The notes beneath the pieces were generated by a model that made no database searches, was not told where the DNA came from, and saw only the letters and a program-made list of their open reading frames with translations. A DNA stretch of 64,000 bases from Corallococcus soli (GTDB lineage: Bacteria; Myxococcota; Myxococcia; Myxococcales; Myxococcaceae), in contig NZ_JAAIYO010000003.1 of assembly GCF_014930455.1 (NCBI RefSeq), forward strand, positions 868,001 through 932,000, written 5' to 3'. The position numbers and the translations under genes were made by a program. Shown piece after piece: positions 41,370 to 58,062 of the stretch (positions within the stretch are counted from its first letter, which is position 1; every line of letters starts with the position of its first letter).

Positions 41370-42770
41370 TTACAGCCCGGTGCTCTTCAGGAGCAGGCGC
41401 GCGGGGCCGGGGAAGAACCCCGGCGTGTAGATGTTCGCGTCCGTGACGAACGCCGTGTCGCCGCTGACGACCAGCTTGGGTCCACTGGTGGGACGGATGA
41501 AGAGGGGCAGCGAGAGCTGGGTCTCCGGCCAGCGCACCACGCCGCCCGCCCCGAACGTCGTGTCCAGGTCGCCGTTGGCCTGGAAGCGGAACAGCGCGGG
41601 CTTCGCGCGCACGTTGGCGTAGACGAGGATCTTCCCGTCGGCCTGGATGGCGAGGCCGCTGACGTCCACCACGTCGAGCACGTCCTCGGGCGCGGTGAAC
41701 TCGCGCACGCCCTCGGGGCCGAAGGTGACGTCGGGCTTGCCCTCCGCCGTATAGGCCACGAGCTTCATGACGCCGTGGCCCACGCCTCCAATCTTCACGT
41801 CCTGCCGGTCGCCCGCGAGCAGGAAGCCGCCGCCGGGGCGGGCCACCATCGCGTGCGCCGTGCCGTCCACGCTCTTCGCGAGCCCGGACGTGCCGAACGT
41901 CATGTCCTGGGTTCCGGCCGGACGGATGCGCACCGTCGCGAAGTCGTCACCGCCGCCAATGACGATGCTCGTGCCCTGGATGACGATGCCCTGGACGGAT
42001 TCGGCGCTCGTGTACGCGCCGCCAATCCAGCTTCCCGCGGGGCTCCCCGCGGACGTGAAGCCCGTGTCGAGCGAGCCGTCCGCCTTGTAGCGGATCAGCG
42101 CGAAGTCCTCGTCCAGGCCGTCGGACTTCGTGAGGAAGCCGCCGACGTAGAAGCTGCCGTCCGCCATGGGCAGGATGCGGTGCACCGCGCCCCGGAAATC
42201 GACGCTGCCCTCCGCGCCGAAGTGCAGCCGGGAGCGGCCCGTCTTGTTGAAGCTGGTGTCGAGCTGTCCTGACGGGGTGAGCTTCACCACGGCGAAGTCG
42301 CGCGAGTCGGACGTCGCGCCGCCCTGGGCGAAGCCCGCGACCAGGAGGCTCCCATCCGCGAGCACCGCGACGGTGTCCGCGCGGTCTGCCTGTTCCCGCT
42401 CTCCGGAGATGGGTCCCTTCGCGGGCCCCTCGAAGTCGACGACGACCGAGCCCTGCGTGCCGAACGCCGTGTCCAGCTCCCCGGTGGCCGTGTAGCGACG
42501 GACCAGCACGTCCACGCCGGTGGCGGCCAGGTTCGCTTCGGTGGAGCCCACCACGATGAGGCCCCCGTTGGAGGCCGCGAGCGCACGGCCTTCCTCGGCG
42601 GGCTGCGCGGTGCCAGCGTCCGTGCCGGCATCCGTCTGGGTGCCGCCATCCGTCGTCGGGCCGGGGCCCGGGTCGCCGTCGTCGCCGCCACAAGCCCCAC
42701 TGCCCGCGACGAGGGCACCCGCCGCCACTGCCACCACGAACCGCCAACCACTCCGCACGCTGCGCTTCAT
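41370..42770 (-). CDS. Delta-60-repeat (DUF5122 beta-propeller) lipoprotein
   Basis: A 466-aa lipoprotein with lipobox ending GSGAC, followed by an Asp/Gly/Thr-rich linker and about seven delta-60 repeats (TATGELDTAFGTQGSVVVDF, SGQLDTSFNKTG, DGSLDTGFTSAG, GKPDVTFGPEGV, NGDLDTTFGAGGV), which build a beta-propeller. Surface-exposed, binding partner unknown; common in myxobacteria. ATG 42770 is preceded by the 83-bp leader repeat, whose AAGGGA would be the ribosome site. Confidence 0.9.
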   Translation of the reverse strand: MKRSVRSGWRFVVAVAAGALVAGSGACGGDDGDPGPGPTTDGGTQTDAGTDAGTAQPAEEGRALAASNGGLIVVGSTEANLAATGVDVLVRRYTATGELDTAFGTQGSVVVDFEGPAKGPISGEREQADRADTVAVLADGSLLVAGFAQGGATSDSRDFAVVKLTPSGQLDTSFNKTGRSRLHFGAEGSVDFRGAVHRILPMADGSFYVGGFLTKSDGLDEDFALIRYKADGSLDTGFTSAGSPAGSWIGGAYTSAESVQGIVIQGTSIVIGGGDDFATVRIRPAGTQDMTFGTSGLAKSVDGTAHAMVARPGGGFLLAGDRQDVKIGGVGHGVMKLVAYTAEGKPDVTFGPEGVREFTAPEDVLDVVDVSGLAIQADGKILVYANVRAKPALFRFQANGDLDTTFGAGGVVRWPETQLSLPLFIRPTSGPKLVVSGDTAFVTDANIYTPGFFPGPARLLLKSTGL

Positions 42771-42838
42771 TCGAGATGTCCCTTCTGGGGTGACAGGGAC
42801 CCATCTGGGCACCCCTCGCACCTGGAGTGCAAGTGGGC
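42756..42838 (-). promoter_or_regulatory. 5' leader repeat, copy A
   Basis: 83 bp covering the first five codons of the delta-60 lipoprotein gene and its upstream leader. 76 of 83 bases match copy B at 55954-56036 in the same orientation. As RNA, GUCCCU can pair with AGGGAC across an 11-nt loop, hiding the AAGGGA ribosome site. A second stem, GCACU/GGUGC, becomes GCACC/GGUGC in copy B, so pairing is kept. Suggests a structured translational control element or a shared promoter-leader cassette. Confidence 0.7.
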
Positions 42839-42938: not shown

Positions 42939-43874
42939 ATGATGTCCCGGTCACTCATCATCGGTACGACGATCACCCTATCGGCTGCGGTGGCGTTGCT
43001 CGTGGGTGTAAGGCATTCGGCCGCGCGGCAGCTCCCGGTAGGAATTCCCAGCGCGCCCCCGTCCTTGTTGGAGGAGCCCGTCGCCAAGAGCCGCGAGGCC
43101 GCCAGCTTCGTCGGGGTGGTCGTGGCCAGCAGCAGCGTGGACATCTCAGCACGCTTCGAGGGACGCTTGGACAGCGTCGATGTCCAGGTGGGCGATCGCG
43201 TTCGCAAGGGGCAGGTTCTTGCGCGGATGGACGTTCTGCCATTGCTGCGGGAAATGGCTGTCACCGAAACGGATCTCCAGGCAGCGCTCGCTCAGGAGTC
43301 GGTAGCCCGGCTTGCATTGGCTGCGGCGCAGGAGTCCTTGAAACGAGGTGGCGATCCCAAGCTGTTGTCCATTGGAGCCATCTCCGAGGAGGAGCAGGCT
43401 CGGTTGGGATACGCGGAGAAGACCGCCGCCGCGCAGTTGACGCTCGCGCTGGCACAGGTCCGCAACGGTCAAGCTCGGCTGGCGCAATTCAAGCTGAAGC
43501 TGTCCGAAGCCGTCATCCAGGCCCCCTTCGAAGGGCGCATCGCGAAGCGCTACCTGGATGCAGGATCGCTGGTGTCGGCAGGCAAGACGATCCTTCACCT
43601 GCTGCACGAAGGGCCCAGCCAGATCCGCTTTGCCATTCCGGAGTCCCAGGCCTCCCTGGTGGCCGTGGGGGCTTCCGTGCAGATTCGCAGTCGCGGCGAC
43701 GGGCCCCGGTTCTCCGGACGCGTGGAGAACGTGGCCCCGGAGGTCGACTCCGTTTCGCGTATGGTCCTGGCCATCGCGCGCCTTCCCGCGGATGCCGCGA
43801 ATCCATTCCCTCTGGGCGCTGCCGTCCGTGTGTCGGTCGTCGGCGTCGGGGCGCAAGGCGCCAGCGCCAACTGA
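42939..43874 (+). CDS. HlyD/RND-type periplasmic adaptor, first transport gene of lanthipeptide cluster
   Basis: A 311-aa membrane fusion protein: N-terminal anchor (about 5-25); SFVGVVVASSSVDISARFEGRLDSVDVQVGDRVRKGQVLARMD as first lipoyl half; a helical hairpin (about 105-185); VIQAPFEGRIAKRYLDAGSLVSAG as second half; and a beta-barrel. It is more like RND adaptors than bacteriocin ones. AGGGAT lies just before ATG 42939; a second ATG follows immediately. 14 bp before the next HlyD gene. No TolC-like gene is present here, so an outer-membrane duct must come from elsewhere. Confidence 0.88.
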   Translation: MMSRSLIIGTTITLSAAVALLVGVRHSAARQLPVGIPSAPPSLLEEPVAKSREAASFVGVVVASSSVDISARFEGRLDSVDVQVGDRVRKGQVLARMDVLPLLREMAVTETDLQAALAQESVARLALAAAQESLKRGGDPKLLSIGAISEEEQARLGYAEKTAAAQLTLALAQVRNGQARLAQFKLKLSEAVIQAPFEGRIAKRYLDAGSLVSAGKTILHLLHEGPSQIRFAIPESQASLVAVGASVQIRSRGDGPRFSGRVENVAPEVDSVSRMVLAIARLPADAANPFPLGAAVRVSVVGVGAQGASAN

Positions 43875-43888
43875 GGCTGGGAGAAACC

Positions 43889-44836
43889 ATGTCAGGCCAA
43901 CCGAACCCATCGATCTACCGTCAGGAAGCGGTGGATCACCGGAACAGCGCCCAGGAAGACGGCGACGTGCTTCACATCGCCCCTGAATGGACGCGCTGGA
44001 CGTATTGGACGCTCCTTGGCGCGCTGCTCGCGGGGGGCGTCTACTGCATCTTGGGGACGCTGCATGAGTACGCTTCGGGCTCAGCCATCGTGCGCTTCGA
44101 GGGTAAGACGGAGCTGACCAGCCACAACACCGGCCTGGTGTCCTCCGTCGAGGTGCAACCCGGAGAAAAGGTCCGTGCCGGGCAGCGGCTCGTGACCTTC
44201 ACCTCAGCGGAAGAGGTGGCCAGCATCGAGCGCCTGCGCCATGAGCACGAACTGGCGTTGGTGCGCTACCTGCGCGAATTGTCGGACGACTCCGCGCGGC
44301 AGGCCCTGTCGTCCGTCCGCGCCTCAATGGAACTGGCCGAGGCACAGCTGGAGACACGCGCGCTGCGCGCACCCCATGACGGCATCGTCACGGATGTGCG
44401 CGTCAAGGCAGGCCACTTCCTCACCCCGGGGGTGAGCGTGTTGTCCATCATCCCCGAGGACGCCGCCCCCCTGTTGCTAGCGTTGTTCCCGGGATCGTGG
44501 CGGCCCCAACTCCTGCCCGGAATGACCATGCGCATTGAGCTGGATGGCTTCCGCTATGAGTATCAGGACGTGGTCATCGAACAGGTGGGCGATCAGATCA
44601 TCGGTCCGACCGAAGCACGCAGGTACCTGGGACCGGAGCTCTCCGACGCGCTCAAGCTGGAGGGTTCCATCGTCCTGGTGCGTGCGCGCCTGCCCGCGCG
44701 CACCTTCGTCCGGGATGGCCGAACCTTCACCTTCTTCGACGGCATGCCCGTACGCGCCGAAGCCAGGGTCCGCACCGAAAGCATCCTGTTGACCCTCGTG
44801 CCAGGCATCAAGGAACTGCTCCCCCATGGCACCTGA
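43889..44836 (+). CDS. HlyD-family bacteriocin-export accessory protein
   Basis: A 315-aa adaptor with a cytosolic N-terminus of about 38 residues, one TM (about 40-58) and a lipoyl domain (LTSHNTGLVSSVEVQPGEKVRAGQRLVTF). The hairpin is unusually short (about 107-150), followed by TRALRAPHDGIVTDVRVKAGHFLTPG and a beta-barrel. This short-hairpin type is typical of partners of C39-peptidase ABC exporters. GGGAGAAACC precedes ATG 43889. Its 3' end overlaps the exporter gene by 11 bp. Confidence 0.87.
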   Translation: MSGQPNPSIYRQEAVDHRNSAQEDGDVLHIAPEWTRWTYWTLLGALLAGGVYCILGTLHEYASGSAIVRFEGKTELTSHNTGLVSSVEVQPGEKVRAGQRLVTFTSAEEVASIERLRHEHELALVRYLRELSDDSARQALSSVRASMELAEAQLETRALRAPHDGIVTDVRVKAGHFLTPGVSVLSIIPEDAAPLLLALFPGSWRPQLLPGMTMRIELDGFRYEYQDVVIEQVGDQIIGPTEARRYLGPELSDALKLEGSIVLVRARLPARTFVRDGRTFTFFDGMPVRAEARVRTESILLTLVPGIKELLPHGT

Positions 44837-47078
44837 ATCCAAGCCCTCGCTCCAAAGCCGATTTCCGGCGCTGCGCCGGCTTTCAGCCCGGGTGGGCAGG
44901 CACCGAATCCCCGAATTCCGGCAGATGGCGCTCACGGACTGCGGAGCTGCCTGTCTAGCCATGGTCCTGGGCTACCACGGAAGGCACGTGACGCTCCAGG
45001 AGGTGCGTGAGAGCGCGGGCGTCGCCCGGGACGGTCTCACCGCGCTCACCCTTCTGAATGCCGCGCGGCGTTTGGGCCTGCGCGGACGTGGCGCATCCCT
45101 GGACGTGGACCAACTGCACTTCCTGCCCACCGCCACCATCCTCCATTGGCGCTTCACCCACTTCGTCGTCTTCGAACGAGCGGAAAAAGACTGGGTGGAG
45201 ATCATCGATCCCGCGCAGGGACGGCGCCGGGTTTCCATGGAGGTCTTCCGGCAGTCCTTTACCGGAGTGGTCCTGCTGCTTGAGCCTGCCGAGGGCTTCG
45301 AGCGGGGCAGGAGCGAGACTCCGGGGCTGGGACGCTACATCGTGCCGCTGTTCCGTCAGTCCGGCACCCTGGGACGCATCTTCAGCCTGTCGTTGATGCT
45401 CCAGCTCTTCACCCTTGCCATCCCCATCCTGACGGGCGTGGTGGTGGACCGGGTCATCCCTCGAACGGACCACTCCCTGTTGTTCGTCATGGGGGCCGGG
45501 CTGTTGGGCCTCATCGTCTTCCAGTTCCTGACGTCGCTTGTCCGTGGATACCTGTTGACCGAACTGCGCACGCGGGTGGACTCGGAGCTGACGCTGGGCA
45601 CGCTCGAGCATCTGGTGAGCCTGTCGTTCCCGTTCTTCCAGCTGCGGCCGGTCGGCGACCTGATGATGCGACTGAACATGAACGCCATGGTGCGGGACAT
45701 CCTGTCCACCGGCACCCTGTCCACCATGTTGGATGGCTTGCTGGTGTTGATCTACATGGCCATCCTCCTGGTCGCGAGCCCGCTCCTGTGCCTGCTGGTC
45801 CTGGGCCTGGGGGCATTGCAGCTCCTCGTGTTCGCCCTCTCCCAGCGCAAGCAGCGCAGCCTGCTGTCCCAGAACCTGGAGCAGGACTCGCGCAACCAGA
45901 GCTATCAACTGGAGATGCTGGCGGGCATGCAGACCCTCAAGGCCTTCGGTGTCGAGGCCCGTTCGGTGCAGCTCTATTCCAACCTCTTCGTGGACTCACT
46001 CAATCTGTCCGTGAAGCGGGGCGTGCTTTCCACATGGGTGGAGTCGTTCACCAGCACCCTGCGGTTGGCGTCCCCGTTGCTGCTGCTCCTGCTGGGGGCG
46101 TGGCGGGTCATGGAAGGTGAGCTGACCACCGGCCAGATGCTGGGCGTCAACGCCCTGGCCAGCGCGGTCCTGGTCCCCCTGGCCAACCTCGTCTCCACTG
46201 CGGGGCAGTTCCTCCTGTTACGGACCTACCTGGAGCGCCTGAACGACGTGATGGACGCACCTCCCGAACGCTCCCGGGACAGGGTGGGGCGCTCCCTGCA
46301 ACTGACGGGTGCGTGCGAGTTGGACCATGTGTCGTTCCGGTATGACAAGTCCGGGCCGCTCGTCGTCCAGGACGTTTCGGTTCGCATCCTACCGGGACAG
46401 ATGGTGGCCATCGTTGGCCGCTCGGGAGCGGGGAAATCCACCCTGGCCAACCTGTTGCTGAGCCTGTACCTGCCCACTTCGGGTCGCATCGTCATGGATG
46501 GAGCAGACCTGAATGACCTCGACTTGCAATCGGTTCGCAGCCAGATGGGCGTGGTCCTCCAGGAGCCTTCGTTCTTCGGTACCACCGTTCGCGCCAACAT
46601 CGCACTCAACGACACCGACATCCCGCTGGATGCGGTGATGAGCGCCGCGCAACAGGCGCAGATCCATGACGACATCATGGCCATGCCCCTCAAGTACGAC
46701 ACGCCGCTGTCCAGCTTCGGTCAAGGGCTGTCTGGGGGCCAGCGGCAGCGGTTGGGGTTGGCACGCGCGTTGGTGCGCAAGCCCGCCATGCTGCTGTTGG
46801 ACGAGGCCACCAGCGCACTGGATGCCTTGACCGAGGCTCGGGTCCATGATGCGTTGGCGGCGCTGCGCTGCACCCGCGTCGTGATTGCCCACCGGATGAG
46901 CACCGTGGTGAATGCAAACCTCATCCTAGTGATGGAGGCGGGGCGCTTGGTGGAGCAAGGGTCGCACAGGGAACTCATGGCGCGCGGAGGAATCTACGCA
47001 AGCCTCATCCACGCGCAGCTCCGGGGACACCTGCCACCTGACGAGGAGCCCCTGCCGATGCGTGTCTCGGGGACCTGA
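44826..47078 (+). CDS. lanT: Peptidase-containing ABC exporter (C39 peptidase - TM - ATPase)
   Basis: A 750-aa PCAT that removes double-Gly-type leaders and exports the peptide. Residues 30-150: C39 peptidase with oxyanion Q33, catalytic C39 in TDCGAACLAM, H112 in RFTHFVVFE and D128 in IIDPAQG, all intact. Residues about 165-455: six TMs. Residues 490-730: ATPase with GRSGAGKST, QGLSGGQRQRLGLARAL and LLLDEATSALD. It faces the minus-strand lan genes and is the obvious protease/exporter for the precursor, whose leader ends in a Gly-Ala site. Confidence 0.93.
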   Translation: MAPESKPSLQSRFPALRRLSARVGRHRIPEFRQMALTDCGAACLAMVLGYHGRHVTLQEVRESAGVARDGLTALTLLNAARRLGLRGRGASLDVDQLHFLPTATILHWRFTHFVVFERAEKDWVEIIDPAQGRRRVSMEVFRQSFTGVVLLLEPAEGFERGRSETPGLGRYIVPLFRQSGTLGRIFSLSLMLQLFTLAIPILTGVVVDRVIPRTDHSLLFVMGAGLLGLIVFQFLTSLVRGYLLTELRTRVDSELTLGTLEHLVSLSFPFFQLRPVGDLMMRLNMNAMVRDILSTGTLSTMLDGLLVLIYMAILLVASPLLCLLVLGLGALQLLVFALSQRKQRSLLSQNLEQDSRNQSYQLEMLAGMQTLKAFGVEARSVQLYSNLFVDSLNLSVKRGVLSTWVESFTSTLRLASPLLLLLLGAWRVMEGELTTGQMLGVNALASAVLVPLANLVSTAGQFLLLRTYLERLNDVMDAPPERSRDRVGRSLQLTGACELDHVSFRYDKSGPLVVQDVSVRILPGQMVAIVGRSGAGKSTLANLLLSLYLPTSGRIVMDGADLNDLDLQSVRSQMGVVLQEPSFFGTTVRANIALNDTDIPLDAVMSAAQQAQIHDDIMAMPLKYDTPLSSFGQGLSGGQRQRLGLARALVRKPAMLLLDEATSALDALTEARVHDALAALRCTRVVIAHRMSTVVNANLILVMEAGRLVEQGSHRELMARGGIYASLIHAQLRGHLPPDEEPLPMRVSGT

Positions 47079-47124
47079 ACGAAGGCCAGGGGCGCCGGAG
47101 CGCTGTTCCGCGCAGGCCCGCGTG

Positions 47125-47844
47125 TCAGGAGTACGGGGTGACCACGTAGGGCACCATCGTTGCGCCCAGCGCACGCTTTTCGAAGACCCGCAGCATCCCA
47201 TCACGGTCCGTCAGGATGCGCAGGGCCTCGCGCTCCACGTCATTTTCGGGCGCCACCGAATCGAAGAATGCCTGGGCATCCGCCATGAAGACATCCGGCC
47301 GCGTCTTCAACTGACACAGGGACTGCTCGCCTCGAACCATCTCTCGGCCGCGTTGGATGGCGTCCCACATCTCCGACCACCGCTGTTCGCTGCGAGCAAT
47401 GCGGGCGAAGTGCAGGCAGAAGTCGGAACACCGCGTGGAGAAGGCCACAAGGAAGGGCGCCTGCTCGACGACGTCCGCGAGCACCTGCTGTCCGGTGTAC
47501 AGCGCCCGCTGTGCAGCAGCATGGTCTTCCACATGGTAATGGAAATAGGCGAGCGACGTCCACCAGGACTCCCTCGCGGCACCCTCGACGCAGCGGTCAA
47601 TCCCCGTTTGGCCGAGCGAATCCAGTTGCCTGCCGCAGTCGTCGAGCATCGCCTTGGCCTCAGCGAGTTTGCGCCTGCGCAACAGCCCCACGGCGATGTC
47701 CAGGTTTTGTGCCAGGTGCTCGCAACCGGAGCGCTGGTACTCCTCGTACCAAGCGGCTCCTTCCGAACTGGCGCGTGGGACGAAGTGGTACCAGACGAGC
47801 GCCTCCGTGAGCCTGAGAGCCTTTCTCTGGACGCGCGACGACAT
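47125..47844 (-). CDS. Alpha-helical protein of unknown function, last gene of lanthipeptide side
   Basis: A 239-aa soluble, mostly helical protein with paired amphipathic helices (DIAVGLLRRRKLAEAKAMLDDC, YHVEDHAAAQRALYTGQQVL) resembling TPR-like repeats. No signal peptide or TM. Start at ATG 47844 with AAGAGG upstream. It lies beyond the terminator that follows lanA, so it is expressed by read-through or from its own promoter. Could be an immunity, chaperone or regulatory protein; no motif decides. Confidence 0.6.
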   Translation of the reverse strand: MSSRVQRKALRLTEALVWYHFVPRASSEGAAWYEEYQRSGCEHLAQNLDIAVGLLRRRKLAEAKAMLDDCGRQLDSLGQTGIDRCVEGAARESWWTSLAYFHYHVEDHAAAQRALYTGQQVLADVVEQAPFLVAFSTRCSDFCLHFARIARSEQRWSEMWDAIQRGREMVRGEQSLCQLKTRPDVFMADAQAFFDSVAPENDVEREALRILTDRDGMLRVFEKRALGATMVPYVVTPYS

Positions 47845-47874
47845 GGACCGACCTCTTCTCCACGAATCGACGTG

Positions 47875-47913
47875 AAAAGGCCCAACCCCGGCATCAGCCA
47901 TAGGGTTGGGCCC
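47875..47913 (-). terminator. Rho-independent terminator after lanA
   Basis: Perfect 10-bp inverted repeat GGCCCAACCC / GGGTTGGGCC (47879-47888 and 47903-47912) followed on the minus strand by TTTT (47875-47878). It lies about 37 bp after the lanA stop and upstream of the 239-aa gene. Confidence 0.85.
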
Positions 47914-47949
47914 TCGTTCAGCGTACTTCAAAACGGAAGGCCTGAACGA

Positions 47950-48120
47950 CTAGCCCTGGGTGGCGACGGTATCCGTCTTGATCGTGGTCGCGCCGGACGA
48001 GCAGCAGATGCAGGAGTTCGCCGTGCTGACGTCAGCTGCCGCGCCGGAAACCGAGTTCAGCTCTTCGTCGGACAGCGGGGTGATCGCCAGCTCATCGATG
48101 TTCGCGAGATTCTTCTCCAT
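47950..48120 (-). CDS. lanA: Class I lanthipeptide precursor peptide
   Basis: A 56-aa peptide starting at ATG 48120 after a perfect AAGGGAGG ribosome site. The leader (1-27) is acidic and ends PLSDEELNSVSGA, the E-L-X2-V-X-G-A pattern cut by C39 peptidases after Gly26-Ala27. The core (28-56) carries four Ser, six Thr and three Cys in CICC (C37, C39, C40), so at most three thioether rings. Seven or more dehydratable residues would be left over, several of them C-terminal to the cysteines (SSGATT, TDTVATQ). It lies last in the synthetase operon, 104 bp after lanB. Start, leader and core are inferred from sequence alone. Confidence 0.9.
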   Translation of the reverse strand: MEKNLANIDELAITPLSDEELNSVSGAAADVSTANSCICCSSGATTIKTDTVATQG

Positions 48121-48224
48121 CGAAACCTCCCTTGTATGGGGCACAAGATGTGCTCCCAGGGTGAAGACTTTATCACGCAAGGGGAATACTAGAAAAGATG
48201 GAAAGTGCCCTGCCCGACGCGATT
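48121..48224 (-). promoter_or_regulatory. lanB-lanA spacer with hairpin upstream of the lanA ribosome site
   Basis: 104 bp between lanB and lanA. On the minus strand GGGAGCACA and TGTGCCCC form an imperfect stem with a 3-nt loop (48138-48157), ending about 18 nt before the lanA ATG. The AT-richer stretch upstream (TTTTCTAGTATT, TAAAGTCTTC) could contain a weak lanA promoter. A processing or stabilising hairpin would allow more precursor than enzyme; this is inference. Confidence 0.45.
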
Positions 48225-50912
48225 TCATGGGAATGTCGGGTGAGTCCTGGGAATGACGAGGCTGTCGAGAATGACCTCGACTCCCCAGCGCCGACCCTGA
48301 ACATCCGTGGGATAGGCTTCTGGGGTTGGAAGTGCTTCCTCAAGGGTGACCTGTTCCATCTTTCCCGTCGAAAGAACCGTCTGGAACAGCGCGACGAGCG
48401 CTGGCGAACGGAAGTCGATGTACTGGGGTTTGAAGACATCGAATGAGACGGCTTCCGCCGTAACCTTTTCGATGAGGTACACCTGAACTGGCAGGCCCAG
48501 GGCCTCCCGCCAGCGATTGATGGCCAGGAAGGCATCGGGTTCGGGCATCTCCCAGCGCGGCATCCGCTCAGGAGGAATCACCCAACGGCGGCGGCGCACA
48601 ACCAGCCGCCCCAGGGTGAGTCGTTCGGCCACGGTGATGCCGTCGCGCTCGTGCCCATGGGTGGGAAGCATGAGGGTGCTGCGGGCCATGGTTCCGAAGA
48701 CGTCCAGGAACTTCAAGGGCGAGGCAAGGAACTCGTTCTGGAGTGAGCTGAGATAGCTGGGGATGAGTCGCTGGCCCTGTCTGTCTCGGATCGTGAAGCT
48801 CCGCGAGAGAGGGTCCGCGCGGAGCACCAGATCCCGAAGTTGCAGCCTCCGACTTTCGGGCAGGAGTGAGAACTCACCCGGTATCTCCAGGATCCGGGGA
48901 GTCTGGGGGGCGTGGATGCCAACGGTGTTGCCGCGGATGAAGAGGGTGTCCAGCAACTCCGCGGTTTCTTCACCCATCCTTCTGCGGGAGCCACGCTCGT
49001 AGTGGTCGGTGTAATCCGTCAGCGCGGGTGGCCCCATGATGGCCGTGAAGCGGCTTCCGCAGCGGCCCGTGCCTTCGAAGAAGCGGTTCGCCACCCACTG
49101 CGAACCCCGCGCATCCGCAGGCTGCGCAAAGAGGCAGGGGCCCACAAGCGGGGCGTAGCGGGCTGGAATCCCATCCACCAGCCGCTGCAGCGCGTCCAGT
49201 TGGACCTGGGTCTCGCCATCCTTCTGGCGATAGATCTGGGGAATCGCGCGTCGGAGTTCTTCGCGCAGGTGCTGCAACGATTCGACCTCTTCCAGCCCGA
49301 AGGGATTGAAGGTCCCTCCCTGGGAAGAGGACGACCGGTGGGCCAGGGCCTGCTCCCAGAGCGGCTGGGCCTCCGCGAAGAACTCCAGGAAGGGAATCTC
49401 CGCGCGCCCCGGCCACCGTCGTTCCGCGAATGCCCAGAGCGCATGGTGGATCTCATGCCGCGGCTCGAAGAGGTTGGCCAACCTCCAGAGTAGATCCGCC
49501 TGGGACAGCAGCTCCTCGGCGGTTTTCGGATCGACATGCACCACCTCGTGGGAAGGTGAGCGGTGTTCACCCGTGTGCAGCAGGACATCCTCGTAGTAGT
49601 TGTGGGTCACCTTCTCCAGGCGAAGCGCCAGGGCATCCCCCGCCACGGCCTCCTGGATCTGCTCGAAGAGCCGGGCCACCAGCCGGTCGATCTCCTTCAC
49701 GGACGCGAGCGGTGACTTCGACCCTGAGTACTGCTTCTCCAGCTCAATGAGCGATTCGAGCGTCCCGACAAGGGGCTCCAGTCCCGCGTCGGGAAGCAGG
49801 CCACGCACGAAGTGGAGCAGATGCTGCTCGAGGTGGAACTCGATCGTCGACCAGGGTGGAACGAGCTGGAGAAACCCGATGTTGATCAGCTTGGCGAACG
49901 TGGCATCCAGCCGCTCCGGGGCTTCGTCGAAGGCGGCGGCGGCCTCGTGCTGGACCTCTCGGTAGGAGCGGGAACGGCCATTCAGTTGTGTCTTCAGCCA
50001 GGTGATGAGCGGTCCACTCAGCCGGACCCGCACCTGCGAAGGACGCGTGAACCTGAGTTCGCCCGAGGTGACGTCCCGCTCCAACATCAATGGACGCAGG
50101 AAGCGGTGCTGGCCCTCTCCCAGGTCCTCGATGGTGTCGTTGAGAACGACGGCGAGCGCTTCGCGGGCACGGGGGTGCTGGAAGAGCAGTTCACGGCTCT
50201 GGTCCAGCAGATAGCGCTTCACGCGCAGGAGGGACCGTTCAGACCAGGGCTCGTCCAGCACACGGATGCTGTAGGCGGGGTCCTGTCCCTCCGTGACCAG
50301 TCCGAGCGCCACCTTCGTGAAGGTCGAGTACGGCGAGAGCTTCACGACGGAGCGGCTGAAGTAGCGCAGCAGGCTCTGCTCCGTCTTGCGCTCCCGCTTG
50401 CCATACTCGGACTGGGGCTTCAGGTACAGGCGATCAAGGTACTCCACGAGCCCCGCGCTCGCGAGGCTGACGGCTCGCAGGAAGGATGGCTGTCGACCTT
50501 GTTCCAGCAGCCATTGATGACCGGTCTCGCGGTCCTCCAGGTAGCTCTTCCGGAAGGCCTGCTCACCAGCCTCGATCTCCTGCTCCTGCCCGAGGACCCG
50601 TTCGAGGATCAACGCGGCGGTCGGGGGAAGCTGCTCCCATTGTGGCGACTTCCGGTACTTGTGGAGGGGCCGGTGGTTGAAGCAGTCCCGCTTCACGTTC
50701 AACAGGAAGTGCCGGATGGAAGGGTCGGCGCCGGGCAGTGCCGCGAAGAGCGCGTCCGCTGCATCTGAACGCAGGGCCTTCAATTGGGCGGTGAGCCGGT
50801 CCAGATGCGCGAGCTGTTCCATGCAGCGTGCGCTCACGAACGGATCCATGTTGCTGGCAGGCAATCCCGACACGCGTGTGATGACTGGGATGCCGGCTGA
50901 CTGATTCCCCAT
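48225..50912 (-). CDS. lanB: Lantibiotic dehydratase, glutamylation domain only (split LanB)
   Basis: An 895-aa protein matching the N-terminal tRNA-Glu-dependent glutamylation part of LanB enzymes (NisB/MibB type), which esterifies core Ser/Thr with glutamate. The hallmark SPYSTFTK lies at 193-200; GRCGSRFTAIMG and the HYERGSRRRM region follow. The sequence ends after the Lant_dehydr_N part, without the SpaB_C elimination domain, which is encoded separately upstream. Start is ATG 50912 with GGAGG 5 bp before it; ATG 50924 is the alternative. 48 bp after the third SpaB_C-type gene. Confidence 0.92.
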   Translation of the reverse strand: MGNQSAGIPVITRVSGLPASNMDPFVSARCMEQLAHLDRLTAQLKALRSDAADALFAALPGADPSIRHFLLNVKRDCFNHRPLHKYRKSPQWEQLPPTAALILERVLGQEQEIEAGEQAFRKSYLEDRETGHQWLLEQGRQPSFLRAVSLASAGLVEYLDRLYLKPQSEYGKRERKTEQSLLRYFSRSVVKLSPYSTFTKVALGLVTEGQDPAYSIRVLDEPWSERSLLRVKRYLLDQSRELLFQHPRAREALAVVLNDTIEDLGEGQHRFLRPLMLERDVTSGELRFTRPSQVRVRLSGPLITWLKTQLNGRSRSYREVQHEAAAAFDEAPERLDATFAKLINIGFLQLVPPWSTIEFHLEQHLLHFVRGLLPDAGLEPLVGTLESLIELEKQYSGSKSPLASVKEIDRLVARLFEQIQEAVAGDALALRLEKVTHNYYEDVLLHTGEHRSPSHEVVHVDPKTAEELLSQADLLWRLANLFEPRHEIHHALWAFAERRWPGRAEIPFLEFFAEAQPLWEQALAHRSSSSQGGTFNPFGLEEVESLQHLREELRRAIPQIYRQKDGETQVQLDALQRLVDGIPARYAPLVGPCLFAQPADARGSQWVANRFFEGTGRCGSRFTAIMGPPALTDYTDHYERGSRRRMGEETAELLDTLFIRGNTVGIHAPQTPRILEIPGEFSLLPESRRLQLRDLVLRADPLSRSFTIRDRQGQRLIPSYLSSLQNEFLASPLKFLDVFGTMARSTLMLPTHGHERDGITVAERLTLGRLVVRRRRWVIPPERMPRWEMPEPDAFLAINRWREALGLPVQVYLIEKVTAEAVSFDVFKPQYIDFRSPALVALFQTVLSTGKMEQVTLEEALPTPEAYPTDVQGRRWGVEVILDSLVIPRTHPTFP

Positions 50913-50960
50913 CGCTGCCTCCATGCTAGGACGCCTTTTCCCTTGGGTATGCCGTGGAAT

Positions 50961-51974
50961 TCACGCCATGGCGGTGATGCAGAATCGCTGCAACTGCTCC
51001 GAGACGAGCGCTGCCAGTGTCTCGCCCGGCAGCGCCGCTTCCTGCGTTCGCTGTTGGAGGAGGCAGGTCCCGACCTCGGACCAGAAGGCGGGGTCACGCT
51101 CCGCCAGGGCGACAGCACAACGGCACATGAGGCGGGTGAGGTAGCCTTCCTCGGCGTTGGCCAGGCCCATGCGGTTGGAGGACATGTGCAACTGGCTGGC
51201 GGTGAGGATGCGCCGGGGCTCCAGTGGCAGGTCTTGCACGGTGCGCGACAGGCACTGCGCCGCCTGGACCTCAAGGGGGACCTTTCCTGCCAAGAGCATT
51301 TCGAGGGTGCTCCGGAACTGCCGCTGGAAGGCTTCCCGGTTCGCATCGAACACCGCGTCCGCACGGGCCATGGGCAAGGCCATTCGCGGGCGCCAGCCGA
51401 CGAAGTAGTCAAGCAGCGCCGAAAAGTCCACTAGGTCGATCGCGAGCCCGAAAGCCTGCTGCACCAGCCGCGTCATGCTTCGTGGCAGCAACTGGGCCCG
51501 AGTCATTGAGATGGCCTCGGCATTCAAGGCGAGCGCATCAAGGCTTGAGATCGCGAAGTGGTCGAGCGAATGCGGGAGCAGGCGTTCTCCGCCATAGCGC
51601 TCGACCTCCAACTCAAGCGCCGCGCGCATGATGCGCGGTCTTTCGCCGTGAAGGGCTGACGCGGGTCGCTCCGCGAGTGACGCCAGCAACGCATGCGCAT
51701 GGTGCTCCAGGGGCCCAATGTCCCGCTGGCGTGTGCGCAATCTCAGCCGAATGTGATCTCCCTGCTCGGCGTAGCGGATGAAGAAGAACCGATCAATCCG
51801 CCGCTCGGCGAGCAGGGTCTGGACCGCTGGCCGCACCACCTGGTCGAGCAACAGGTTCAGGCCCGAGTTCAGGAAGAGGTGGAAGGAAATCCAGCTGGCG
51901 TCGTCGAGTGGGACGACCAGGGCTCCGGGTCCGGAGTCCGACGTCCGCGCCCTGTCCGGGTCGACCGCGTCCAT
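50961..51974 (-). CDS. Stand-alone SpaB_C (thiopeptide-type) elimination protein, canonical form
   Basis: A 337-aa protein matching the C-terminal elimination domain of LanB, which removes glutamate to give dehydroalanine/dehydrobutyrine. It keeps the canonical set: DRFFFIRYAEQGDHIRLRLR (R67, H74, R76, R78), ERYGG (125-129) and HMSSNRMG (H263, N267, R268). Of the three tandem relatives it is the one closest to a classical NisB C-domain. ATG 51974 shares one base with the preceding TGA, so translation is coupled. Directly upstream of lanB. Confidence 0.88.
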   Translation of the reverse strand: MDAVDPDRARTSDSGPGALVVPLDDASWISFHLFLNSGLNLLLDQVVRPAVQTLLAERRIDRFFFIRYAEQGDHIRLRLRTRQRDIGPLEHHAHALLASLAERPASALHGERPRIMRAALELEVERYGGERLLPHSLDHFAISSLDALALNAEAISMTRAQLLPRSMTRLVQQAFGLAIDLVDFSALLDYFVGWRPRMALPMARADAVFDANREAFQRQFRSTLEMLLAGKVPLEVQAAQCLSRTVQDLPLEPRRILTASQLHMSSNRMGLANAEEGYLTRLMCRCAVALAERDPAFWSEVGTCLLQQRTQEAALPGETLAALVSEQLQRFCITAMA

Positions 51975-53014
51975 CAGCTCGCCGCCTGGGTCCAGGTGCC
52001 CGCGGCCCGCAGCAGCAGGTGGTGGAGGTAGGCCTCATTGCTCATGCGGAATCCAAGCTGGTTGGCGCAACCATGGAGCAGCTTGAACAAGGGGAGGTGG
52101 GTGGAATCGGCGGCGTAGGGGTCCAGGTCGTATTCCGGCTGGCCCCGGTAGCCGGCGATGTGACGGAAGAACGCTGCGACGCCAGAGCGCCATCCTCCCA
52201 GCGATCCTTCGTACCGCGCGACCGGATCCAATCCGGCGTGCGCGGCGATGAGCGCACCCAGGGGAGCGATCGCGGAGCTCGACTTGGCGAGCTTCTGCTC
52301 AAGGTCCTCAAGGATGGACGCGTGGCTCACCTTGTGGGGATCTCCGTTGGCCACGAAGTACCGGACGAGCCAGTCGCGATGGTACGTCAAGTAGGTGATC
52401 CAGAACGCGGGGGCATCGCTCGCCTCGGAGATGCCGGCGATTAGCATCTTCAGGAAGAGGGACTGGCGCTTTTGCGCATATGCCTGACCCGTCATGTCCG
52501 GAGCCAGTTCGACGAGGATGAGCCGTGCGCATTCGGCCATGGCACGCGTGAAGAGTTCGGAGTGCTCGGCGTCCCGCACGAAGGACTCCGCCCCCAGGAC
52601 CGCCGGGCTGCGGCTGTAGGTCGTCCAGAGGAGGCTTCGGTCTGGCGCCTCGCCCTCGGAGCCGTCCTCGACATCAATGGGAGGGAGCTGCGAGTTGACG
52701 ATGCGCTCGGATGGCGCGATTTCCACGAGGGTTCCGAAGAAGCGGGACACCTCCGCCTCCAGCCTTCCCCGAACCTCCTCCGCGAGCCGCGCCGAACCAT
52801 GGACCCTCAGCTTGAGGTGCTCACCACGGCGCGCATACCGCGTGAACCACAGGAAGCAGTCCTCTTTGTCGTGAAGGAACTGGAGCTGCGTCCAGAGGGG
52901 CGCAATCGCTTGGGCCAAAAGTTCGTCGAGCCGCTGGTTGCAGTAGATGTTCGCGGTCACGATGGGGTCGGGTAGCCTGGGGAGCGTCCGCGACGGCTGG
53001 GTTTCCGGTGTCAT
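51974..53014 (-). CDS. Stand-alone SpaB_C-like protein, divergent paralogue 2
   Basis: A 346-aa relative of the LanB elimination domain. It shares IVTANIYCNQRLDELL (about 18-33), FTRYARRGEHLKLR (R59-Y60, H66, R70) and the C-terminal LLHGCANQLGFRMSNEAYLHHLL with paralogue 1, but lacks the RYGG motif, having LLWTTYSRSPAVLGAES instead. Whether it is a second elimination enzyme, a leader-binding partner or has another activity is open. Its ATG overlaps the stop of paralogue 1 (ATGA), so they are coupled. Confidence 0.82.
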   Translation of the reverse strand: MTPETQPSRTLPRLPDPIVTANIYCNQRLDELLAQAIAPLWTQLQFLHDKEDCFLWFTRYARRGEHLKLRVHGSARLAEEVRGRLEAEVSRFFGTLVEIAPSERIVNSQLPPIDVEDGSEGEAPDRSLLWTTYSRSPAVLGAESFVRDAEHSELFTRAMAECARLILVELAPDMTGQAYAQKRQSLFLKMLIAGISEASDAPAFWITYLTYHRDWLVRYFVANGDPHKVSHASILEDLEQKLAKSSSAIAPLGALIAAHAGLDPVARYEGSLGGWRSGVAAFFRHIAGYRGQPEYDLDPYAADSTHLPLFKLLHGCANQLGFRMSNEAYLHHLLLRAAGTWTQAAS

Positions 53015-54045
53015 CGGTGTGGTCTCGATGAAGCTGGGGGAGAAGAAGGCGAATCGACCTCATTCGCCTTCAGCAACGGGCGCAGCGCATGGCCCAGCAG
53101 GTGGAGGAGGTAGACCTCGTTGCTGATGTCGAGCGCGACGACGTTGGCCGTGTTGTGAAGGACTCGTGCCACCGCGGCGAAGAACAAGGGACGTTGTTCC
53201 GGCGACAACCCGGCTGCCACCGAGACACCGCAGGCGACGAGCGCTTGGCGCCCATGGATTCCCAGGGCGCCACTCCAGTTCGTGAAGGCGTCATGCCCCG
53301 GGGCCGGGCGTCCCGCGTGGCGCTCGAGCGCGATGGCCGTCAGTCGCTGCAGCGTGCGGCCCTCCTTGGCGACCCGGTGTTCCAGGAATTCGATGGCCTG
53401 GGAGGGACTGTCGCTGGTGCCAGCGAGCAGCCAGTCCCGGTGGAACACCAAGTACTCGCATTCCTCCTCGGGCCGAAGTCCCAATCCCGCGAGGGCACCA
53501 AGCAGGAAGCGTGTGAACAGAGCGGTGCGGGCGGCCGTCCGGGCAGGCCGCCCGCCTTCCGGAAGGGGTTGCATCAGGACGACCCGGGTTGCCTCCGCGA
53601 GACACCGGATGTAGCCCTCGGCGAATCCCGCGGTGCTGGAGAGGGGTTCGCAGCCCATGTGCGACGGCTGGAGCCGGTAGTGCGTCCAGAGAAGGGTCCT
53701 GTCGGGCCGAGGCGTGTCGCCAATGTCCTCCTCATCGAGTGCGGCAATCAGTCTGTTCTCGGCGCGTCCAGCGCCTGGGACGGGGGCGGGGAGAGTGGCC
53801 ATGAACCGGTCGACTGCGGCACTTAATGCCTTGCGTGCAGCCCCTGCCGCAGCTTCCGGCCCGTACATCCGGACCTTGAGATGCTCGCCGCGAAGCGAGT
53901 ACCGCATCAGCCAGAGCAGGACATCCTCTCCGTGGCTCAGCCGCATCTCCGCCAGGAAGGGAGCCATGACCTGGTGTATGAGTTCATCGATGAACCCGTC
54001 GCAATAGATGTTCGCGGTGAGCAGCGGCTCGCGGTGCGATGACAT
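53011..54045 (-). CDS. Stand-alone SpaB_C-like protein, divergent paralogue 1
   Basis: A 344-aa protein like paralogue 2: LLTANIYCDGFIDELI (about 8-23), LWLMRYSLRGEHLKVRM (R48-Y49, H55, R59), LLWTHYRLQPSHMGCEP in place of RYGG and the C-terminal VLHNTANVVALDISNEVYLLHLL. Start taken at ATG 54045 by analogy with the paralogue's N-terminus. A GTG at 54066 overlapping the lanC stop (GTGA) is a good alternative and would couple translation to lanC. Confidence 0.82.
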   Translation of the reverse strand: MSSHREPLLTANIYCDGFIDELIHQVMAPFLAEMRLSHGEDVLLWLMRYSLRGEHLKVRMYGPEAAAGAARKALSAAVDRFMATLPAPVPGAGRAENRLIAALDEEDIGDTPRPDRTLLWTHYRLQPSHMGCEPLSSTAGFAEGYIRCLAEATRVVLMQPLPEGGRPARTAARTALFTRFLLGALAGLGLRPEEECEYLVFHRDWLLAGTSDSPSQAIEFLEHRVAKEGRTLQRLTAIALERHAGRPAPGHDAFTNWSGALGIHGRQALVACGVSVAAGLSPEQRPLFFAAVARVLHNTANVVALDISNEVYLLHLLGHALRPLLKANEVDSPSSPPASSRPHR

Positions 54046-54062
54046 GGGGTGGCCTGTTCCAG

Positions 54063-55397
54063 TCACTCGAAGAGGGCCAGGCAAGGCAGCGTCGAGGGCT
54101 CCGCTAGCCGGAGAAAGCCGTAGCCAAGCCCCGCGAGCCCATGAAAGAAGGAGGGCTCACGGTCATTGCCGGGTCCCAGGTGGAAGCCACCACGCGTCTT
54201 GGCGGCACGCAGGACATGGAGCGCGATGGCATGTGCCTTCTGGAGCAACACGTTCTCTTCCGTGTGTTGCCAGGCGCGCAGGAGTGTTTCGGCCCAGCCC
54301 ATGTTTCCACAGCAGAGGTGATCCATCGCGTACGGGGGACTCGTCCGCAGCGTGGTGAGCGCCCAGCCCAGTTCCTCCCTGAGGGATGCGTCGAGCGTCG
54401 CCGGTGGTGCCAGGTCGAGCAGCGCGATGCGGCCCAGCGCCATTCCTGGCGCGCCATGACACCAGCCCAGCAGGAACTTCCTCTCGCGTTCAGGTGAGAG
54501 GAACCAGTTGCCGGACTGAGGATCGAAGAGCTGACGTTCAAAACGCAGCGCCTCCGCAATCGCGTCCCACGATTCTGTGTCGCCACCAACCCGGTTGGCC
54601 AACCGGGCCAAGGCCATGCAGACGCCCGTGGTTCCATGGGCCATGCCGCTGCGTGGCCAGGAAAAGGTCCGGCGTGCCCAGGCCCGGGGCCCCTGTTCGA
54701 AGCTGATTCGATGGCGCAGGAGATGACCCCTGGCCACCTGGGCCAGTTCGAGTGGGGTCTGCCCGCGCGGGTTGGGACGGTCCGCCACGCGTCCCAGCGA
54801 AAGCAGCGTCAGGATCGCCCCCGCACAGCCATAGACCACGTCAAGCCGGATGTCGGCGGTCAGCTCCTCGGGCGTGATGAGCGCACTGAGGGCATGCGCT
54901 TCGTCCAGGAGGGAGGCGTCGTCGAGCAGCTGGCCCAGCTTGACGAAGCAATAGAGAAGCGACCCCGCCCCCACCAGCCCCCCAATGCCGAGGCGTGCGA
55001 GTGAATGCGCCAGGGAGCCAGCCGCCACTGCGCGAGCCTGCTGACGGAGCGGGGCGAAGATGCGCAGGGCAAGCTCTCGGGACTCCGCGTCACCTGTCAA
55101 CCGCCCATGCGCGGCGAAGAAGAGGCCAATTCCCGGAAGCCCACTGTAGAAGTCATGGATGCCGTCGGGGAGCGGAAGCTTGGGATTACCACTCCCTTCC
55201 GCAGTTTCGCGAGCATTGCCCACCCATGACACGCTTCCATCCGCGTCACGGATGCACTGTGCACGAAGACGGGCTGCCACGACGGAAGCGGCATTCAACA
55301 GGAGGCCTCGGTCGAGCGTCGCCACAGCGGGCGTGTCATGCTCAATCGGGCGGGTCGGGGATTCGGACGAGGTGGGAAGCCGGGCGTGTGACTGCAT
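54063..55397 (-). CDS. lanC: Lanthionine synthetase LanC with CCG zinc motif
   Basis: A 444-aa cyclase that adds Cys thiols to dehydrated residues. The (alpha/alpha) toroid repeats contain GIHDFYSGLPGIGLFFAA, GIGGLVGAG, VYGCAGAILTL, MAHGTTGVCMALARL, GWCHGAPGMALGR, LCCGNMGWAETLL and FHGLAGLGYGFLRL. Zinc ligands are C313, C362 and C363: the second motif is CCG, as in ProcM-like class II enzymes, instead of the CHG of classical LanC. The C-terminus (LAEPSTLPCLALFE) also resembles LanM cyclase domains. ATG 55397 follows GGGAGGGACCAAGGAC. First gene of the minus-strand operon. Confidence 0.93.
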   Translation of the reverse strand: MQSHARLPTSSESPTRPIEHDTPAVATLDRGLLLNAASVVAARLRAQCIRDADGSVSWVGNARETAEGSGNPKLPLPDGIHDFYSGLPGIGLFFAAHGRLTGDAESRELALRIFAPLRQQARAVAAGSLAHSLARLGIGGLVGAGSLLYCFVKLGQLLDDASLLDEAHALSALITPEELTADIRLDVVYGCAGAILTLLSLGRVADRPNPRGQTPLELAQVARGHLLRHRISFEQGPRAWARRTFSWPRSGMAHGTTGVCMALARLANRVGGDTESWDAIAEALRFERQLFDPQSGNWFLSPERERKFLLGWCHGAPGMALGRIALLDLAPPATLDASLREELGWALTTLRTSPPYAMDHLCCGNMGWAETLLRAWQHTEENVLLQKAHAIALHVLRAAKTRGGFHLGPGNDREPSFFHGLAGLGYGFLRLAEPSTLPCLALFE

Positions 55398-55473: not shown

Positions 55474-55968
55474 TTATTCCATCGATAGGCGCCTGCATTC
55501 CCTTTCTGACAACCTCAATAGGGGAGTCAGGGGTGTCCTTGACGCTCCTGGGGCGTCAGCCAAGTCCAGCAGCACGTCCTCCTCGGAGAAGGTCTCCACC
55601 GCGAACTTGCGGAGCACGCGGAACGTCGTGTCCAGGCGGGGGAAGATCTCCCGGAACATCGTCCACTCGCGCAGGCGCGCCACCGCGTCCCGGTGCTGCG
55701 GCCCCAACGGCAACCGCAGCCCCACCGCCCGCGCCGGCAACGGCAGGCCCGGCGTGAACTCCGCCTCTCCCGACTCCCAGGCGTAGCAGTCGAAGAGGGC
55801 CTCGCGCGCCTTGTGCTCCATCGCCTCCATGAGCTGCGACAGCTCCACGAAGCAGCGCTGCACCAGGAAGGTGCCGTAGGGCAGGTTTGCCCCCTCCGCC
55901 GCCTCGAACGCCGCCGTCGCACGCGGAGCCTTCAGGATGCGCAGGTTCACCAACACGCTGCCCTTCAT
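55474..55968 (-). pseudogene. Chimeric fragment: leader repeat joined to an internal piece of the DUF4388 gene
   Basis: A 164-codon open frame. Codons 1-5 (MKGSV) come with leader copy B. The next ~130 codons duplicate the internal part of the DUF4388 protein encoded at 59720-60913 (VLVNLRIL...ETFSEEDVLLDLA), including one in-frame 3-bp deletion. The last ~29 codons are unrelated. It lacks the N- and C-terminal parts of its parent, so it is probably a remnant, though it could be translated. It lies just upstream of lanC at the cluster edge. Confidence 0.8.
55560..55956 (-). repeat. Duplicated DUF4388 gene segment, copy 2
   Basis: 397 bp nearly identical to 60328-60727 in the same orientation, differing by scattered substitutions and one 3-bp deletion. 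The right end meets the leader repeat at a shared CAC, suggesting a microhomology junction. High identity implies a recent event. Confidence 0.9.
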
Positions 55969-56036
55969 TCAAGCTGTCCCTTCTGGGGTGACAGGGACTC
56001 ATCTGGGCACTCCCCGCACCTGGGGTGCAAGTGGGC
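55954..56036 (-). promoter_or_regulatory. 5' leader repeat, copy B
   Basis: Second copy of the 83-bp leader found at 42756-42838, same orientation, 76/83 identical by hand alignment. It keeps GUCCCU/AGGGAC pairing over the ribosome site and strengthens the upstream stem to GCACC/GGUGC. The two copies stand as direct repeats on either side of the lanthipeptide cluster. Confidence 0.7.
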
Positions 56037-56891: not shown

Positions 56892-57018
56892 GTCGCTCTG
56901 GGGTCGTTGAGGGGGCGCTCCCTCGTCGGGGGCACGATGCCACAAGGCAATGGAGATGCCGGTGAGTGCCGCATCGGGTGTGGGCTGACGGCACCGGGTG
57001 CTACCGTTCCCGGTCCCG

Positions 57019-58062
57019 ATGAAGATCCTCTACCTCAACTTCGCCGCGCCGACGGACAACGCCACCAACAACTCGATTCCGAGGATCCTGGCCAAGTACC
57101 AGAAGCAGGATCAGGCCTCCCGGATGAACCGTTTCTCCGCGTGGTGGTGGGGCGCCTCCGTTCTGGAGCGGGTGGATTGCTTCGCCAGCGTGGCGGAGCA
57201 TCAACGGTACCTGGACACGCCGCTGGGGCGGGATCCCGGCTCCCTTGCGGCCTATGAGCAGGCGCGGGGACAGGTGCGCGGCTTCTTCCTGAGGCATCCC
57301 CAGTGCAGCAAGATCATGGTGGGCATGCACGGCCTGTATGACGACACGACGTACGGCTACTCGCAGCCCCAGCACGACGCGCCCCGGGTGTCCTACGACA
57401 AGGCCTCGGACATCGTGCTCTCGTTCCTGAGAGACCACGTGGGCAGCCGTCCCATCAGCCTGTCACTGGTGATGTGCTACGGGGCGCGGTCGGCGCAGTT
57501 CGACGTGTCCCATGATCCGGACCGGCTGGGAGGGGTCGCGGGGCCGGACCTGTCCAGCGCGTTCGCGTTCAAGTTCTACGCGGGCCTGTGCAAGTACCTG
57601 AACGTGAAGATGAGCGCGCGGACCGGGGCCGCCTCTTTCGATGACACGACGGGCGCGTCCCGCGTGGAGTCCGAGCTGACGCTGGGCCACCGCATCCAGA
57701 TGACGCGCAACCCTTTCACCCCGCAGGAGCAGGCACAGCTCGACGCGCAGAGCCAGCTCGAGCTGGACATGTTCATGCAGGATCTCCAGCCGCAGGCCGT
57801 AAACCCGTTCAACATGGATCAGATCAAGGCCGCGGACCGGCAGGGAGATGCCTTCGCCCAGGACCAGCTCGTGACCCTGCAGGGAGCGGATCCCCTGACC
57901 CGGGCGAAGCGCGAGGCCGCGTGGTCGCGCTACTCGCAGCTGCCCCAGTCGAAGCCGAAGAAGTCCGGCAAGCTGACGTACGAGTACGACCCGGGCACGC
58001 ACCAGGTCGTCATCAAGAGCAAGTACCCGGAGCCGCGCGTCGTGCAGCGGGTGAGGATCTGA
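57019..58062 (+). CDS. Protein upstream of Sit-like toxin, with clan-CD-peptidase-like His/Cys motifs
   Basis: A 347-aa protein without a signal peptide. The first ~170 residues alternate predicted strands and helices. KIMVGMHGLYDD (H104) and ISLSLVMCYGARSA (C153) are hydrophobic strands ending in His-Gly and Cys, as in caspase/clostripain-fold (clan CD) peptidases. The rest is Gln/Lys-rich and ends in a basic segment. Five bp separate its stop from the toxin start, so it is in the toxin operon and occupies the place of sitB in SitBAI cassettes. Peptidase activity is inference. Confidence 0.6.
   Translation: MKILYLNFAAPTDNATNNSIPRILAKYQKQDQASRMNRFSAWWWGASVLERVDCFASVAEHQRYLDTPLGRDPGSLAAYEQARGQVRGFFLRHPQCSKIMVGMHGLYDDTTYGYSQPQHDAPRVSYDKASDIVLSFLRDHVGSRPISLSLVMCYGARSAQFDVSHDPDRLGGVAGPDLSSAFAFKFYAGLCKYLNVKMSARTGAASFDDTTGASRVESELTLGHRIQMTRNPFTPQEQAQLDAQSQLELDMFMQDLQPQAVNPFNMDQIKAADRQGDAFAQDQLVTLQGADPLTRAKREAAWSRYSQLPQSKPKKSGKLTYEYDPGTHQVVIKSKYPEPRVVQRVRI

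Follow-up and report, generated by a model that had tools for sequence, protein, structure and literature searches.

The 64,000-nucleotide window analysed here, from Corallococcus soli (assembly GCF_014930455.1, contig NZ_JAAIYO010000003.1, positions 868,001 to 932,000), carries a lanthipeptide gene cluster of mixed class on a 13-kb block of inserted DNA (hereafter the island); the cluster is real and probably functional. On the plus strand (42939-47078), two HlyD-family adaptors, the periplasmic adaptor P0001 (42939..43874; HlyD_D23 1.9e-18, RND_mfp 2e-37) and P0002 (43889..44836; HlyD_3 3.5e-10), are followed by P0003 (44826..47078), an ATP-binding cassette (ABC) exporter with a C39 peptidase (Peptidase_C39 1.7e-35) and ABC domains. 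The minus strand, read from 55397 down to 47125, holds in this order a stand-alone LanC cyclase (P0009, 54063..55397; PF05147 157 bits), three SpaB_C proteins (P0008, 53011..54045; P0007, 51974..53014; P0006, 50961..51974), a LanB N-terminal half (P0005, 48225..50924; PF04738 72.5 bits), a 56-residue precursor peptide (47950..48120) and an orphan open reading frame of about 239 residues (47125..47844). The Pfam domain Lant_dehydr_C (cut-off 24.4) was found in three island proteins with 103.8, 52 and 25.5 bits; the best start of the third SpaB_C gene is 54045 and that of LanC is 55397, the same position at which the first-pass annotation of this DNA ended the cluster. All reading frames are intact, with a coding-like third-position GC of 0.74-0.88, and every gene that this annotation had listed (precursor, split LanB, SpaB_C-type proteins, LanC, C39 exporter and two HlyD adaptors) is present and intact. 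Its description as a complete class I cluster holds for the dehydration parts, whereas the cyclase, the exporter and the leader are class II-like and three lyase-like proteins per transferase are non-standard.

P0005 is predicted to be a glutamyl-tRNA-dependent glutamyl transferase. Its best solved relatives are 6ec7/6ec8 (4.7e-21), which are TbtB (PMC10979984), and the goadsporin protein 9jhq (1.2e-14), and it keeps the residues that are invariant in three Streptomyces split LanBs. Its neighbour P0006 is the predicted glutamate lyase: R76, R78, E123, R126 and H263 correspond to NisB R784, R786, E823, R826 and H961, i.e., all five lyase residues checked in columns placed by counting letters along the NisB chain, and P0006 thus carries the anti glutamate lyase residue set. 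For its AlphaFold model (pLDDT 81), the nearest structure is MibB (Z 22.3, 3.5 over 258 residues), and MadB comes within 1. A LanB transferase with a glutamate lyase, as in class I, is therefore found both by sequence and by residues. One could suppose instead that P0005 is a PEARL, adding an amino acid to a peptide C terminus, and not a dehydratase half, as PEARLs are likewise short LanBs without a lyase domain (PMC10979984); however, P0006 with its complete lyase site lies next to it, and P0005 reads E863-A-L865, with Leu where PEARLs have Arg (by an inferred mapping of this position, the second PEARL-specific Asp being unmapped), so that this explanation appears extremely improbable. Relatives of P0005 are scarce. 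Among 96 genomes of the family, 21 (own included) gave a match, the foreign ones being weak and partial (best 38.8 bits); among 195 genomes of the phylum at E<=1e-6, only the own genome and one other at 38.8 bits remained; a single-sequence search of genome_contigs returned no close LanB relative; and the plasmid relatives are four Streptomyces proteins with 22-34% identity. Note that among the LanB loci L027-L110 (84 loci, four of them on plasmids and some short), no LanC was found by a LanM-trained profile, which may miss some and scores the class I LanCs of the island's own family at only 29-47 bits. A second, full-length LanB lies elsewhere in the own genome (C2:148488-151478, L188; 1124-residue frame), with a LanC-like frame alongside.

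The cyclase P0009 is a separate LanC, as in class I, but its best NCBIfam model is the LanM model TIGR03897 (263.5 bits, below the cut-off of 304). Its zinc motifs, WCHG at 333-336 and CCG at 383-385 of a 465-residue TTG-start frame, give three Cys ligands instead of Cys-Cys-His. In the following, LanM-length genes and LanM loci were named by frame length (>700 aa) and a cyclase match. The best match of P0009 in the 195 genomes is a stand-alone LanC adjoining a LanM-length gene (genome G059, locus L163; 211.8 bits), and most of the next matches lie within LanM-length frames, the better ones with 32-39% identity. In a FastTree phylogeny of 57 sequences, P0009 pairs with the stand-alone LanC of L163 (0.893) inside a clade (0.991) which consists of exactly the six sequences with two adjacent Cys at the zinc site, among which are four LanM-length genes, three from the family and one from Nostoc (all supports being those of FastTree only). 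P0009 thus falls among LanM domains, and the family's class I LanCs lie outside, a class I side made up of five family rows (two of them the same gene) chosen by the LanM-trained profile, not Pfam-checked and without any Firmicutes or actinobacterial class I LanC; midpoint rooting placed two LanC-family proteins (Deinococcus and Rhizobium) beside the LanM group.

The export genes, too, resemble those of LanM clusters. Relatives of P0001 adjoin LanM-length genes, P0003 reaches up to 1080 bits with exporters adjoining such genes, and of 46 retrieved loci with a LanM-length gene, six (L163, L195, L203, L217, L225 and L226) carry the full trio next to it, with P0002 at 346-440 bits. A leader of the GG/GA type together with a C39 exporter, as in class II, is thus present in the island, while no kinase-like LanM dehydratase domain was found among its Pfam-scanned proteins, i.e., the dehydratase of class II is missing from them. 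A LanM-length gene lies 48 kb to the left of the window start.

The precursor consists of the 27-residue leader MEKNLANIDELAITPLSDEELNSVSGA, which ends in EELNSVSGA, and the 29-residue core AADVSTANSCICCSSGATTIKTDTVATQG, with three Cys arranged as CxCC, four Ser and six Thr. The open reading frame 47950-48120 agrees with the earlier description (56 residues, GA-ending leader, CxCC core, ten Ser/Thr); its ribosome site (AAGGGAGG) is strong and its third-position GC is 0.88. The NCBIfam double-glycine leader model TIGR01847 matches it with 15.8 bits (cut-off 15.7, E 0.016), and the lichenicidin A2 and DUF5837 models match below their own cut-offs. By reading, the leader has neither FxLD, a class I leader motif (PMC7268733), nor LxLxKx5L. 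That the precursor looks new, as first proposed, is borne out by the searches, which gave no convincing relative in the 195 phylum genomes (60 genomes with a row at E<=1, the best foreign one at E 0.016 with stops) and none in 72,556 plasmid records. Concerning the rings, S5, T6 and S9 of the core precede the three Cys (positions 10, 12 and 13), so that on paper three rings could close in the ordinary N-to-C direction; the choice drawn in the first-pass annotation between backward-closing rings and free dehydrated residues is consequently not forced. The seven Ser/Thr after the Cys may stay dehydro, stay unmodified or close backwards. Behind the precursor, a strong RNA hairpin followed by UUUU (47878..47913, minus strand) could be a partial terminator: the 90 bases there are folded far more stably than shuffled versions of them (z -5.25, with none of 200 shuffles reaching the same stability), a value that covers the whole stretch including a second hairpin, and the listing of a simple terminator scan does not contain the hairpin. 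As a separate observation, a family of LanM-cluster precursors in which CICS or CMCT stands before a tail rich in Thr occurs at L190:7515-7850, L193, L211, L215 and L221; in this family the Cys stand before most of the Thr, as in the island core, and the likeness of the precursor to the CICS-type precursors of L190 (E 0.032) and L215 (E 0.057) was not used as evidence.

The remaining two SpaB_C proteins, P0007 and P0008, are paralogues with 34% identity and with residues of their own. At the five NisB lyase positions, P0007 has K68, R70, S136, V139 and H314, and P0008 (numbered in its 357-residue TTG-start frame) has K70, R72, Q139, H142 and H310. In the 195 genomes at E<=0.001, P0007 matched only itself and P0008, and no match was obtained among plasmids. 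They could be redundant or decayed lyase copies in an ordinary class I cluster with a split LanB, since LanB, lyase and LanC genes are all present and extra stand-alone lyase proteins are described in published class I clusters (PMC9486935, PMC7268733). Such a cluster is nevertheless unlikely here, given that the cyclase, exporter and leader are of LanM type and that both proteins are intact, with coding-like third-position GC (0.83 for P0007, 0.77 for P0008), and changed at the same three of the five positions.

A different possibility is a thiopeptide- or pyritide-like pathway, in which P0007 or P0008 would join two dehydroalanines into a pyridine ring. The company kept by LanB relatives goes in this direction: the three plasmid relatives with annotation belong to thiopeptide- or TOMM-type clusters, and five further loci probably do so, to judge by neighbours with apparently YcaO-like C termini. 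Moreover, stretches reading RGxH and VLG are common to P0007 and pyridine synthases, and the AlphaFold model of P0007 (pLDDT 84, SpaB_C fold) finds TbtD/PbtD first in Foldseek (6.3e-8), before the class I dehydratase MadB (3.7e-6) and NisB (1.3e-5). By VIA-align, however, TbtD (Z 21.7, root-mean-square deviation 3.8, 297 aligned) ties with NisB (Z 20.9, 3.6, 232), and comparison of the predicted fold leaves lyase and pyridine synthase unseparated for P0007. The model NF045556 (TbtD/PbtD) matches only short N-terminal parts, 48 residues of P0006 (E 4.7e-4) and 70 of P0007 (9.9e-5), and does not match P0008. In the alignment, labelled pyridine synthases carry Tyr in the column of NisB His961 and His in the Tyr column of the lyase FFxRY stretch (15 of 15 rows each, labelled partly by gene position, with the four run on the NCBIfam model all above its cut-off), while P0007 and P0008 have the lyase letters, His (H314 and H310) and Tyr, at both columns. 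Tyr also fills the His961 column in another 17 alignment rows, which were classed as "other" and are probably pyridine synthases too. Together with the lack of YcaO among the scanned island proteins and the presence of LanC, this makes a pyridine-forming pathway very improbable. In a midpoint-rooted, weak tree of SpaB_C proteins, P0007 and P0008 pair, any deeper placement being unsafe. In published syn-lyases the His is missing, Arg826 is replaced by a hydrophobic residue, and a special Lys takes the place of a Tyr (PMC9486935, PMC9011353); P0007 and P0008 keep the His, and V139 of P0007 is hydrophobic whereas H142 of P0008 is not. P0007 and P0008 therefore fit none of the three described types fully: they match neither the anti-lyase nor the pyridine synthase residues, and the syn-lyase ones at most in part. 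Elsewhere in the own genome there are three YcaO genes (C20:27599-28555, C1:110693-111739 and C7:253436-254437).

The island lies between two 83-bp direct repeats, 42756..42838 at its left edge and 55954..56036, of which 76 of 83 positions are identical; no further copy was found in the own genome at E<=0.001. The repeats extend into the start regions of the adjacent genes; with respect to Rfam, no family reached its gathering score in the window and nothing credible was seen near the left copy. The right end of the insertion (55559..55961, minus strand) is a 95% copy of 60327-60731, a DUF4388 gene piece of about 400 bp. Among 16 genomes of the genus (own included), the flanking gene 41370-42821 has relatives in 14 and the gene 56998-58062 in 4. 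In two of them, G026 and G023, the left flank is joined to the DNA from 55954 onward over one repeat copy, with the island absent (G023 has about 6 kb of extra DNA further right of the junction), and G030 has a single repeat copy, no island and about 3.4 kb of other DNA to the right (L232). Three congeners thus lack the cluster at this site; the repeat site may be a hot spot, and we infer that the island was gained by transfer.

Taken together, we consider it likely that the island encodes a gained, mixed-class lanthipeptide pathway in which P0005 and P0006 dehydrate, P0007 and P0008 are diverged partners, P0009 cyclises, and the C39 exporter and adaptors process and export. P0005 would transfer glutamate from Glu-tRNA to the Ser/Thr residues of the core and P0006 would eliminate it, leaving dehydroalanine or dehydrobutyrine; P0007 and P0008 may be lyase-like partners for particular residues, for another elimination geometry, or non-catalytic subunits; P0009, of LanM type with the CCG zinc site, would add the three Cys to form lanthionine rings; and the exporter would cut behind the GA motif and export the peptide with the two adaptors. 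The chemical steps, the ring pattern and any activity of the product are predictions from gene content, homology and active-site residues. The product, presumably a sulfur-bridged peptide like nisin, is expected to be new, because parts of two classes are mixed and two unusual extra enzymes are present.

Several observations weigh against this pathway. In P0007 and P0008 the lyase His is retained, but two key residues, the equivalents of Glu823 and Arg826, are missing. The LanB relatives are distant: in the 80 of 106 confirmed genome_contigs loci that were looked at, they are mostly actinobacterial, with 21-35% identity in the best segment. The leader end does resemble those of LanM clusters (3 of 500 shuffles equally good), in a test with 23 candidate rows from 21 loci of which three rows are implausible, and the core showed no significant likeness to LanM-cluster cores (p 0.19). 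No second genome with the cluster was found in our searches, so that conservation of the precursor is without support. Finally, the island GC (0.57-0.67 in 500-base steps) is below the value found over much of the left part of the window (about 0.70) but like that of the right flank (0.66-0.69), and GC alone therefore fails to mark the island as foreign. Beyond the mixed-class pathway as such, a bolder version, which is tentative and which we regard as unlikely, would have P0007 and P0008 form a new branch of the LanB lyase fold with its own chemistry. They would perhaps work as a heteromer on the seven Ser/Thr that follow the Cys cluster, and the pathway would be one that exchanged its LanM dehydratase for a thiopeptide-type LanB but kept cyclase, leader and exporter.

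The closest cluster found is L163 (class II), from the same family. Like the island, it has a stand-alone LanC (with VCCGNFG, 212 bits to P0009), an exporter trio (185, 362 and 946 bits) and a 27-residue leader, here ending in LADEELETVTGG; unlike the island, it has a LanM-length gene in the place of the dehydratase, no LanB or SpaB_C match and another core. Its combination of a LanM-length gene and a separate CCG-type LanC in one gene run (L163:8675-13589) is in itself an unusual pair. Thiopeptide-type dehydratases (TbtB/TbtC, LazB/LazF and GodF) resemble the island in having a LanB half with a separate lyase, TbtB and the goadsporin protein being the closest solved structures; the island differs from such clusters by the lack of YcaO noted above and by its LanC and GA leader.

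A published precedent for the class mixture is given by the pinensin-type clusters of Bacteroidetes, known here by description only. According to Walker et al. (PMC7268733), class I precursors of this phylum, including pinensin with its split LanB, combine GG-type leaders with C39 proteases, and the accompanying LanCs are akin to LanM domains, all of which is shared with the island. In contrast, pinensin-type leaders carry LxLxKx5L, their LanC is related to Firmicutes LanMs whereas P0009 is related to CCG LanMs from within its family and to one from Nostoc, and three lyase-like proteins are not mentioned in the consulted part of that paper. The island thus looks like a separate assembly of the pinensin-like kind, with parts from its own family and two extra lyase-like proteins. 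The spt (SapT) and coi clusters (PMC9011353, PMC9486935) also recall the island by a split LanB (spt), an extra lyase domain (coi) and an altered active site, but their syn-lyases lack the His that P0007 and P0008 keep and carry the special Lys. Regarding myxobacteria, characterised lanthipeptides include class II examples from Myxococcus fulvus (PMC10885120) and boletupeptin of Melittangium boletus, which is of class III by a sentence of a review (PMC12328550). A cluster with the island's make-up was not found in the literature searched, which comprised titles and abstract starts and left most subscription journals outside.

These results suggest that lanthipeptide pathways can swap their dehydration chemistry, from the ATP-dependent LanM to the tRNA-dependent LanB, while the cyclase, leader and exporter are kept. 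Such a swap would offer a clean natural experiment on which enzyme recognises the leader. In addition, P0007 and P0008 would either add to the known functions of the SpaB_C fold (anti-lyase, syn-lyase and pyridine synthase) or illustrate the origin of partner subunits. The CCG motif has been linked to low substrate specificity (review PMC12328550), and a CCG cyclase outside a LanM would be handy for engineering, provided that it shares the tolerance reported for CCG LanMs.

The orphan open reading frame (47125-47844), located 3' of the precursor, belongs to no family that we recognised: Pfam and NCBIfam gave no match at E<=1, and the 195 genomes gave only two foreign matches (E 0.0034 and 0.0066), neither convincing. 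It is perhaps an immunity or helper protein.

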